DNA from: Thermococcus sp. 4557 | GTDB taxonomy: Archaea; Methanobacteriota_B; Thermococci; Thermococcales; Thermococcaceae | NCBI RefSeq assembly: GCF_000221185.1 | Contig: NC_015865.1 | Coordinates: forward strand, 682,001-746,000 | DNA: 64,000 nt | Direction of reading: 5' to 3' | Shown: in pieces, positions 10,899 through 16,956 of the stretch | Numbering within the stretch: the first letter of the stretch is position 1 | Layout of the letters: the number at the start of each line of letters is the position of its first letter | The notes under the pieces: model-generated | What the model saw: only the letters and a program-made list of their open reading frames with translations | Databases searched by the model: none | What the model was told of the DNA's origin: nothing | Translations under genes and position numbers: made by a program

Positions 10899-11660
10899 AT
10901 GGTCAGGTTCCTAATAAGACTCCGCCCGGAGAATGAACCGTTTCGAATACCCTTCAACCACCAGCACATGCTGCAGGGGCTGATTTACCGCAGGATTCAA
11001 CGGGTAAACCCCGATCTGAGCCTCCGTCTTCACTCGCCGAAGATACCGAAGCTCTTCACGTTTTCACTGTTCATGGCAGAGAAGCGAAAGCTCGCGGATG
11101 ACAGAAGCGCTCTGCTCGGCCACGGCCACGGTTTCTTCTACTTCTCAACAGCAGTTCCGGAGGTAGCGGAGGCGTTCATCACCGGCCTGCTCCAGGGGCC
11201 GGAGGTCGAGCTCTGGGGCGAGAGGTTCATGGTGGAGGAGGTCAAGGCTCTGGCGGAACCCGAGAGGCTGAGCGGGAGGAAGTTCGTGACGCTTTCGCCG
11301 ATAGCGGCAACGACGAAGAGGGTTCAGCTCGGCAAGCCCAGGAGCTACGACCTCAGCCCCTCGGAGCCGGAATTCTACGAACTGATACGCGAGAACCTTC
11401 GGGAGAAGTACCTCGCGATATACGCCGAGAGGCCGCCGGAAGATTTCGATATGAAGGTGCTCAACGCCAAGCCCAAACGCTTCGAGGTAAAGCCCGGTAT
11501 CTTCCAAGTGGCGTGGCATCTCGTCTTCCGGGCAAAGGGCGACGAGGGGCTCCTGAGGGCGGGCTACATGGCCGGCTTCGGGGAGAAGAACTCGATCGGG
11601 TTTGGGATGGTGAAGGTTGATGGGGGCAAGAGAGGACTTTCGAAAGGCAACAGGGTTTAA
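10899..11660 (+). CDS. cas6: Cas6 CRISPR RNA endonuclease
   Basis: A 253-residue repeat-cleaving RNase that makes the 8-base 5' tag of crRNAs. Two ferredoxin-like folds are expected. Y30, H45 and K51 sit where the catalytic triad of Pyrococcus Cas6 lies (Y31, H46, K52), and the C-terminal Gly-rich loop [13 protein letters not shown] is typical. The ATG at 10899 has GGGGGAGGG before it. The last dozen residues (from about VDGGKRG) come from sequence that overlaps the start of cas3 by 41 bases, and look like a tail with no family match. GC content matches the host genome, unlike the cas3-cas5 genes that follow. First gene of the cas operon. Confidence 0.93.
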
Positions 11661-13926
11661 TCCCTACACCTTTCAACGGGAGGCAATGGAAAATTTAATT
11701 GAAGGGAGCTCCCTCATAGTTCGTGCTCCTACAGGCTCAGGGAAGAGTGAGATGGTTCTCATCCCCTTCATTTTCCAGATTAATGAGAACTTACCATCCC
11801 AAATGATTTATTCACTTCCCAACAGAACGCTCGTAGAGAGCATAGGAGAAAGAGCGAGGCGATACACTTCCTATAAGAAGCTTCGGGTGGCAGTTCATCA
11901 TGGCAAAAGGCCTGAGAGCTCACTCTTTGAGGAAGACGTGATTGTAGCAACCATTGATCAAACAGCTGGAGCTTACCTAAGCGTTCCCCTGAGCATGCCG
12001 AAAAGATGGGGAAACATATTTCTAGGGACAGCAGGTTCTGCGATGCTTGTTTTTGATGAGGTTCATACCCTTCACCCTGAGAAGGGACTTCTAACTTCAG
12101 TCGCCATGAGCATTGAGAGTGCGAAGTTAGGTATTCCATTTGTTATGATGTCAGCAACCCTACCCAGAAACTTTATGGAGCGAGTGAAAGCTTTAGCCGA
12201 GAAAAAGGGTGGGAAAGTTGAGATAATAGATGTAGAAGATGAAAAGGAAATAGAAGCAAGGGCAAGAAGGAAAGTTGAACTCAATACGGAGCCCTTATTT
12301 AATGAAACCTGCCTCACAGCAAAGGAAATAGAAAGACAAGCGGAAGACGTTGATAATCTCATTGTCGTCGTCAATACGGTCGGGAAAGCCCAGCAACTTT
12401 ATCGGGAATTGAAGGCCAACGCTGACAGGCCGGTAATTTTAATCCACTCTCGCTTCCTGGAGGAAGATAGATCCCAGAAAGAGGCAAAAGTCAGGGAAAT
12501 CTTTGGGAAGGGAAGCTCCGCTAATGAAGCTATACTGATATCAACACAGGTTATTGAAGTAGGAATGGATATATCTTCAGCGAAACTCCTAACTGAGGTC
12601 TCTCCTATTGATTCTCTCATCCAGAGAGCTGGAAGAGTTGCTAGATGGGGAGGTAAAGGCGAAATTATAGTATATAACGTCGAGAAAAAAGCGGGAAATC
12701 CCTATGCCCCTTACTCTAGGGAACTCGTTGAATCCACTATCGATGCTCTAAAGGGTGTTGAACTACTTGATTGGCAGACGGAGATAGAACTTGTTGAGAG
12801 AGTTCTCTCAAAACCGTTTGAGGGCTATCTGGATCCATACAAATTTTATGAGCGACTGGGAGGCCTTGCAAGGGCAGTTTATGAAGGTAAGAGATCCTAT
12901 GTTGAAGAGAACGTTAGAGAGGCGTATTCAGTTGATGTTGCAATCTACAACGACGTAAGTAATCTGAATCCTGACGATGCCTGGAAGCTCAAGCGCCTTC
13001 GGGTTGATTTCAGAGTTCTTAAAGGTAAATTCGACCAAATTATGGAAGTTGGAGGGGGAATCTACAGGGTGGAAGAGAACTTTATCATTGATGAATACGA
13101 AAGTAGATACACCTTTGTTCCTGTCTCAGATAAGAACGAGATAATGCCGTTTGAGTTCTATATAATAACGGGCATTAGCTATTCGCCGGAGCTGGGACTG
13201 CTCTTTGATTGTGAGGGGGGCATCAAGAGGTTTGAGTTCGAGGAAAGAGACAACGTAATCAATGTGGTTGGAGAAGGCAGAATGAGAAAGGAAAGCTGGG
13301 TAGAACATTCGAGAAAAGCCCTCGATGTCCTAAGAGTGTATATGCTTCCACGCTACGACTATCCAATTAGAGCATTTGCCAAATATTTTGGTGTTTCTAA
13401 GAAAGAGCTGATTAGTTGGGTAGAACTGAGCGTCGCTTTGCACGACCTTGGAAAGTTGAACATCTACTGGCAGAAAAAAGCGGGCTGGAGACTCGGGGAA
13501 GAGCCAATAGCCCACGGATTTGAGAAGAAAGGCAAGTTGCCACCGCATGCAACCGTCTCGGCTAAGGCCCTTGAGAAATTACTATTTTCAAATATTGAGA
13601 AAAAGATTGCAAGAGCACTCTATCTATCAATAGCTCATCATCATTCTCCAGGAGCACGAGAGTTTTCTAAATTCAAGTTGGTTGACTCATGGACATCTCA
13701 AATTCTCAAAGTTATTGATAGTATTGACCTTGATGTGGACATTACAAGAGTTCAAGAAAAATCTGATGGTGGAAAATTACCCATTGCTTATTCTCAAATT
13801 CCAGATATTCAAAAGAAAAACGCTCAATATAGATTTTACGGTTTAGTCTCAAAACTTTTGCGTATATCAGATTGGATCGCGACAGGAGGGGGTGAATATG
13901 AGAGAATACTTTATTCCAAAAACTGA
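11620..13926 (+). CDS. cas3: Cas3, helicase fused to C-terminal HD nuclease
   Basis: A 768-residue interference protein. Residues 1 to about 560 are an SF2 helicase: Walker A 36-43 (APTGSGKS), DEVH box D146-H149, SAT motif 178-180, and motif [10 protein letters not shown]. Residues about 580-768 are an HD phosphohydrolase: HD pair H608-D609 (ALHDLGK), PPHATVSA, H673-H675 and a late Asp ([11 protein letters not shown]). In most type I-A loci these parts are separate Cas3' and Cas3'' proteins in this same order; most other fused Cas3 proteins have HD first. It unwinds and degrades DNA bound by Cascade. The ATG at 11620 lies inside cas6; a TTG three bases before is less likely. AT-rich with AGA, AAA and ATT codons. 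Confidence 0.93.
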
Positions 13927-16284: not shown

Positions 16285-16956
16285 ATGAAGTGGCTTAAGC
16301 TAGTCGTTCACTTTCCTTCCTTCTACTCCTACAGGATCCCAGAATATTCATCCCAATACGCACTGGCACTACCGCTGATAGCCCCATCTACTATAAAGCT
16401 AGCAATAATCTCAACAGCTATAAGGATAAGCGGGAAAGTTAGTGAGGGAAAAAAGATATTTGGTTATATCCGGGACGCAGAGGTTGGAATAAAGCCCCCA
16501 GAGAGGATAACAGTAAATAGCGTCTTCGTGAAGAGACTTAAGAAAAAGAAAGACCAGGGAGGTTTCCAGGAGAGCTTTGGAGTCAGAGAGTACATACACT
16601 TCTCTGGGGATATAGAAGTTTACTTGGGAATACCCGATGAAGCAATGGAAAAAGTAAAGCACTATGCAAGGCACATAAGATACCTTGGTACAAGCGATTC
16701 ATTAGCATACATAAAAAGTGTTGAACTCACTAACGAGCTTCCTCAAGGGGTGATATTTCCGGTTGCAATCTCTGAAGTCCCACCGGGTTCACACATCTAT
16801 CCAGTAAAAGACTTTTCTTCAAAGGCCACTTTTGAGCAGATAAATCCATATTCCTCGAAGAATCGTGGAAAACCCTATGAAACCAAATACTACCCACTAA
16901 AACTTTCCAGGAGACCAGTAGAGGGTAGCAATTGGAAAATTCTTTCCATTTCTTAA
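16285..16956 (+). CDS. cas5: Cas5 (type I-A-like) Cascade subunit
   Basis: A 223-residue RAMP protein that caps the 5' handle of the crRNA. The N-terminal WLKLVVHFPSFYSYRIPEYS, then LALPLIAPSTIKLAIIS with the helix after the first strand, and the Gly/Ser loop RYLGTSDSLAYIKSV match the Cas5 pattern (substrate entry strand, P-S-x-IKLA helix). Its ATG begins on the base after the cas7 stop. The last gene of the AT-rich block; GC rises sharply in the 24 bases before cas4. Cas5a is the best fit given the neighbouring csa2-like cas7, but subtype was not tested by alignment. Confidence 0.85.
   Translation: MKWLKLVVHFPSFYSYRIPEYSSQYALALPLIAPSTIKLAIISTAIRISGKVSEGKKIFGYIRDAEVGIKPPERITVNSVFVKRLKKKKDQGGFQESFGVREYIHFSGDIEVYLGIPDEAMEKVKHYARHIRYLGTSDSLAYIKSVELTNELPQGVIFPVAISEVPPGSHIYPVKDFSSKATFEQINPYSSKNRGKPYETKYYPLKLSRRPVEGSNWKILSIS

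Follow-up and report, generated by a model that had tools for sequence, protein, structure and literature searches.

In situ replacement of CRISPR effector genes, in which cas4 and other adaptation genes are kept, has been documented with nucleotide-level edges both between and within subtypes (PMC5704561, Hudaiberdiev et al. 2017), and cas6 and cas1/cas2/cas4 have been termed 'attractor' genes (PMC6452270). The locus described here lies in a window of 64,000 nucleotides from Thermococcus sp. 4557 (the window being the whole stretch of DNA that was analysed), and it is a further case of this published form of replacement. As in the cases reported in PMC5704561, the adaptation genes, cas6 and the flanks stay, the effectors are replaced, and synteny gives the edges. 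In contrast to those cases, the seams also fall inside cas3 and cas8a, although the supplementary alignments of that report may hold similar ones. What goes beyond it is the segment exchange among seven copies of one cassette type, and a composition test that separates the pool from the host. A limited full-text search, with the supplementary figure of PMC5704561 outside its range, found no description of mosaicism inside genes with Cas8a and the Cas3 tail at its centre.

The cassette now present resembles type I-A systems, in that PADLOC assigns both its large and its small subunit to I-A families. Two features of the type, a Cas8a-family large subunit and a separate gene for a Cas11a small subunit, are both present, and a third, split cas3' and cas3'' genes, is absent. 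The split is the usual I-A layout and is not required. Cas3 of the window is a single helicase and HD protein of 769 amino acids, with intact Walker A, DEVH and HDLGK motifs. Its one-protein form with a C-terminal HD domain differs from the I-A systems of P. furiosus and T. siculi, which have been described with HEL and HD components (PMC11246428). A further departure from type I-A is that Cas1 belongs to the I-B family (TIGR03641). Cas8a has no match in Pfam or NCBIfam, and a search of solved structures (PDB) with its profile found none either. An AlphaFold model made from the seven-row alignment reached a mean pLDDT of only 46.8, too poor to support a domain assignment or a fold search.

The PAM-reading part of Cas9 is exchanged at the domain level among relatives. 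The present locus is similar in that proteins which are otherwise near-identical differ abruptly in a part that determines specificity. The class and the protein are different, and for the swapped part of Cas8a a role in PAM reading is putative here.

The reading that we favour, with a probability of roughly 0.9, is that cas6 and the adaptation genes form a socket whose interference cassette was exchanged, the present one having come from an AT-rich pool, entered by recombination and been reshuffled below the level of whole genes. A preliminary description had proposed that the effector genes were replaced as a block while the processing enzyme, adaptation genes and array were kept. That interpretation is right in kind and too simple, and it is partly supported by what follows.

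Composition of the locus and its edges

The locus comprises the following features (positions in the window, with strand).

10830..11660, + strand: cas6 (TIGR01877, 166.7 bits), the left edge of the socket, GC3 0.74
11617..13926, + strand: cas3, chimeric, helicase with C-terminal HD nuclease domain (TIGR01587, TIGR01596)
13575..14824, + strand: inner foreign segment, the last ~115 residues of Cas3 and ~311 residues of Cas8a
13892..15001, + strand: cas8a, type I-A large subunit, chimeric (PADLOC PDLC01513, E 6e-168)
14985..15335, + strand: cas11a, small subunit (PDLC01488, E 2e-58), with a divergent middle at 15023-15269
15301..16284, + strand: cas7 (PF01905, 231 bits)
16285..16956, + strand: cas5a (PDLC01390, E 9e-30)
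16957..16980, + strand: cas5-cas4 junction of 24 bases, the right composition edge
16981..17493, + strand: cas4 (PF01930, 199 bits)
17503..18483, + strand: cas1, Cas1b family (TIGR03641, 441.5 bits)
18493..19158, + strand: second cas4-like PD-(D/E)XK gene (PDLC01132, 127.7 bits)
19154..19408, - strand: cas2 (PF09827, 83 bits)
19587..19929, + strand: leader region; identity to G044 is 98.7% over 19587-19958, a span that enters the first repeat
19930..21708, + strand: CRISPR array, 27 repeats GTTGCAATAAGACTCTAGGAGAATTGAAAG and 26 spacers of 36-40 bases

The block at 11620-16956 has a GC content of 0.434, compared with 0.562 in a 380-kb sample of the same genome. None of 1283 comparison windows of 5.3 kb was as AT-rich (minimum GC 0.444); these windows overlap and were drawn from the 380-kb sample and the remainder of the 64-kb window. 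A maximum-likelihood fit with two breaks placed the left edge at 11656 (range 11565-11782), 4 bases from the cas6 stop at 11660, and the right edge at 16982 (range 16951-17088), at the cas4 start at 16981. The AT-richer effector block of the preliminary description is therefore real, and its two changes were rightly located near the cas6/cas3 overlap and by a gap ahead of cas4, whose length of 24 bases was also correct. The GC minimum that it placed at 13900-15300 was measured at 13500-15000, where GC dips to ~0.38-0.41, and this dip mostly overlaps the inner foreign segment.

The composition shift sits in third codon positions. GC3 is 0.41 in cas3, cas8a and cas11 and 0.42 in cas5, within the lowest 1.2% or less among 337 host genes, and cas7 is less extreme (0.55, 6th percentile of the same genes). 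Values on either side are host-like, as had been claimed for cas6 and cas4-cas1-cas4-cas2; they run from 0.67 to 0.81 (cas6 0.74, cas4 0.70, cas1 0.81, second cas4 0.67, cas2 0.76). Codon usage is in line with GC3, with cas7 again the least deviant effector gene. AAA makes up 0.55-0.67 of lysine codons in cas3, cas8a and cas11 (host 0.23) and ATT 0.40-0.47 of isoleucine codons (host 0.15). The AT-rich codons attributed to the whole block were thus borne out in these three genes; the pattern is absent from cas5 for ATT (0.09) and from cas7 for both codons (AAA 0.26, ATT 0.20).

A socket shared among related genomes

The comparison covered 60 cas loci of the same order that are homologous or related to this one, among them the second cas locus of the genome under study; several of the relatives are draft genomes, and host relationships are based on rpoB alone. 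At least eight different effector cassettes occupy the space between cas6 and cas4/cas1 in this set. By PADLOC, their large subunits belong to three I-B families (PDLC01278, PDLC01542 and PDLC01589) and three I-A families (PDLC01513, which is that of the window, PDLC01643 and PDLC01637), and the remaining sets are one of type IV-C in G068 and one with an unmatched large subunit in G030 (G and L numbers are our handles for genomes and loci). One repeat type is found throughout, whichever cassette is present. Mapped onto the Cas1 tree, cassette type changes 19 times, against a mean of 20.0 after shuffling, and hence does not cluster; the cassette type of the window alone accounts for 6 changes for 7 rows. 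By eye, no common sequence motif was seen at the cas4 junction across all cassettes.

The Cas8a family of the window is restricted to 7 of the 94 genomes of the order (and 7 of the 115 of the phylum), whereas a Cas1 match is present in 75 and a Cas6 match in 92 of those 94. Its six other carriers are G042, G037 and G054 of the same genus, and G074, G086 and G089 of two other genera with lower GC.

The nearest sampled genome, G044, differs from the genome of the window by 0.10 at four-fold sites of rpoB. Identity to G044 is ~95-99%, with short stretches lower, in the chromosomal flanks, in the leader, and in the 5' part of cas6, most of cas1, the second cas4 and cas2; between these parts G044 carries a different I-A type of cassette. 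Conserved adaptation genes and synteny thus surround non-homologous effectors, as is expected of in situ replacement. The handover can be followed within cas6, which is G044-like (~96-98%) up to ~11200 and G042-like (97%) from ~11391. The proposal that the array was kept is upheld for the leader, at 98.7% identity to G044, and finds no backing in the spacers, none of which is shared with G044 or G042. Shared spacers were sought as a sign that the array had come through the exchange, and none was found in these relatives, so that survival of immune memory through a swap stays hypothetical.

Phylogenies of the seven carriers point to separate histories for the effectors and their surroundings. 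A single topology is shared by cas6 and cas4+cas1 (AU 0.49-0.60) and is not rejected by the rpoB data (AU 0.25); the tree of cas6 departs little from that of the host's rpoB. The exact rpoB topology is disfavoured by the cas4+cas1 data (AU 9e-6) and the cas6 data (AU 0.04), which means that descent of the flanks, too, is not strictly vertical. By contrast, cas3 5', cas3 3'+cas8a 5', cas7 and cas5 reject the cas6, cas4+cas1 and rpoB topologies, with AU p values for the cas6/cas4+cas1 topology from 4e-4 (cas5) down to <1e-60; cas11 is too short to decide. Incongruence between effector and adaptation-module phylogenies, by which in situ replacement is also recognised, was therefore found in the AU tests and with the Cas1 tree. 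Congruent trees for the two modules, the outcome that would speak against replacement, were not found. Together with the different cassette in the sister genome, the AU tests confirm the earlier claim that the effector history differs from that of cas6 and cas4-cas1.

Three observations concern other occupants of the socket. In G030 (L063), a large-subunit-like protein of 583 amino acids with CPLC/CVTC cysteine pairs is unmatched in PADLOC, Pfam and NCBIfam, and its cassette has a GC3 of 0.40 within surroundings of 0.73; it is possibly an undescribed Cas8. In G068 (L059), type IV-C genes (Cas10-like, PDLC01221) lie between cas6 and cas4-cas1 with cas1 intact; the published IV-C locus of T. onnurineus has cas4 and cas2 without cas1 (PMC12538437). 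Some genomes (at L057, L058 and L013, for example, among many such loci) have an archaeal ATPase of 370 amino acids (PF01637) that separates their effector genes from cas4; the window lacks it. The second cas locus of the window's own genome (L092, genome positions 122000-141000) encodes a Cas1 43% identical to that of the window and has its own cas3, Cas7-like and Cas5-like genes.

Mosaic structure inside the cassette

A tract that starts in the 3' end of cas6 and takes in most of cas3 (11391-13574) is 0.97-0.98 identical to G042 outside a dip of 120 bases at 11730-11849. Differences at four-fold sites are 0.04 for the 5' part of cas3 and 0.35 for rpoB, which marks the tract as recently shared with G042. 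At 13575 identity falls to 48% for 1250 bases, through 14824 (Fisher p 2e-241). It then returns to 96% up to 15022, drops to 55% up to 15269 and recovers to 98% up to 15434, and the rest of the cassette is 51-84% identical. A three-state HMM gave the same edges for the segment at 13575-14824 in three independent comparisons. This segment is 47-48% identical at the DNA level to G042, G037 and G054 alike, and its closest relative is G074 (~70-75%).

The breakpoints 13575, 14825, 15023 and 15270 are identical in comparisons with G042, G037 and G054, which makes the window's own genome the odd one out. In cas7, the first ~130 bases are common to these three genomes and the remainder is closest to G037 (~90-96%), so that the effector segments have three different nearest relatives. 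The edge at 13575 falls in the HD domain, directly past the conserved HATVSAKAL stretch. Because edges lie inside genes, Cas3 and Cas8a are both chimeric, with their frames open. The seams can be located to within a few dozen bases, some of them inside these two genes, and mosaicism inside genes is unusually clear here. Replacement of an intact module was accordingly seen at the level of cassette type and not at the level of DNA; intactness belongs to the preliminary description, whereas the definition in the literature asks only that effector genes be replaced. The claim that the genes were exchanged 'as a block' is contradicted by the internal breakpoints, by segment trees that mostly reject one another, and by the three nearest relatives.

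Similar exchange is seen between other carriers. G037 and G054 differ at four-fold sites by 0.56 in rpoB, and by only 0.08 in the cas3 tail-cas8a region and 0.07 in cas11, whereas other parts are distant (cas3 5' 0.47, cas7 3' 0.58). As to timing, the tract shared with G042 looks younger than the composition edges, since a low-GC cassette beside GC-rich cas6 and cas4 is common to the carriers of the same genus; the G042 tract itself starts within the GC-rich cas6.

Origin of the cassette and competing explanations

In all seven cassettes of this type GC3 lies below that of their own cas6/cas4/cas1, by 0.10-0.35, even in low-GC hosts. Low GC in relatives had been named as a finding that would count against transfer, and it is literally true of the seven carriers. 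Because all of these cassettes are AT-rich, low GC alone is weak evidence and does not date the swap, and part of the AT-richness may be a property of the genes themselves. The slope of cassette GC3 on that of the host is 0.29 for the window's type, which provides seven points only, and 0.91 for the I-B cassette that most often fills this socket (bootstrap interval of the difference 0.37-0.83). These slopes fit a shared AT-rich pool whose members were adjusted only partly to their hosts. Low-GC genera are a plausible, if unproven, source, and we infer that the cassette came from a low-GC background. A donor search of plasmids, phages and viral contigs did not find the cassette; nor did a genome-contig search find it in other species, a weak result because known Cas8a carriers are missing there too.

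One could suppose that no transfer took place, the interference genes of this type being intrinsically AT-rich through amino-acid needs, expression or host-virus conflict and having been inherited in place. The shared GC3 deficit of the seven cassettes agrees with this, and a residual intrinsic AT bias is possible as an additional factor. Yet the signal sits in third codon positions, the effector trees conflict with the host and flank trees, the sister genome G044 lacks the cassette, divergence from G042 at synonymous sites is about nine-fold lower in cas3 than in rpoB, and the commonest I-B cassette tracks host GC in the same socket, so inheritance in place is barely credible. It is very unlikely that the entire cassette came once from a low-GC relative and has only diverged since. 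The sharp composition edges at both ends suit such an origin, as does a nearest Cas8a that belongs to another genus (G074, 69-70%), but internal breakpoints already contradict it: identity to G042 is 98% in cas3 and 48% in the adjoining segment, cas7 is closest to G037, and effector segments reject one another's trees.

The polarity could also be reversed, with a resident effector cassette around which cas6, the adaptation genes and the array were replaced. Between G086 and G089 (L030 and L077) the long genes of the cassette differ by 0.14-0.20 at four-fold sites, against 0.23 for rpoB, and cas6 and cas4+cas1 differ more (0.46-0.49), a pattern opposite to that of the window which indicates that flank replacement may happen elsewhere. 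In the window, however, the flanks, the 5' part of cas6, cas1, cas2 and the leader continue those of G044 at ~95-99%, and the closeness of the cas6 and rpoB trees likewise makes this polarity highly improbable here.

Under the favoured reading of an exchanged cassette, cas6, cas4-cas1-(cas4)-cas2, the leader and the array would stay put and largely track the host, and the interference cassette between these fixed flanks would be exchanged. The present one, a type I-A set of cas3 with fused HD domain, cas8a, cas11, cas7 and cas5, would have been drawn from an AT-rich pool circulating among related species and would have entered by recombination, with the conserved flanks providing homology. During or after entry, reshuffling with other copies of the cassette, at the gene and sub-gene level, would have produced the chimeric Cas3 and Cas8a. 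The genes of the block showed no sign of a mobile element, and homologous recombination, in the flanks and between homologous cassettes, would explain this anatomy with a mobile element being unnecessary. With the repeat type and Cas6 left as they were, the incoming effector would be expected to work from the existing CRISPR RNAs, and it probably continued to function with them. The benefit may lie in escape from viral inhibitors or in changed reading of the target motif (PAM); effector exchange has been suggested to aid escape from viral anti-CRISPR proteins (PMC6452270).

A narrower proposal, which we advance tentatively and at somewhat less than even odds, is that the carriers share a pool of alleles in which Cas8a, the Cas3 tail and part of Cas11 are repeatedly swapped across species at sub-gene breakpoints while the remaining effector stays near-identical. 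This would amount to diversifying exchange aimed at the PAM-reading, Cas3-docking subunit. The Cas3 tail and Cas8a would travel as a pair, since the two have to fit together.

Under the favoured reading of the locus, what first appears as a composition anomaly becomes a recombination history, in which immune memory genes stay, killing modules rotate, and the large subunit of a given module type is traded in pieces. Such natural chimeras offer ready tests of the matching of Cas3 and Cas8a parts, of PAM use and of resistance to viral inhibitors.

Two cassettes of the window's type, those of G042 (L053) and G054 (L065), also differ in Cas7 and Cas5. Insertions absent from the five remaining cassettes of the type are found together in these two: Cas7 has an extra ~40 amino acids with a zinc-finger-like C/H pattern, and Cas5 has an internal insertion of ~170 amino acids.
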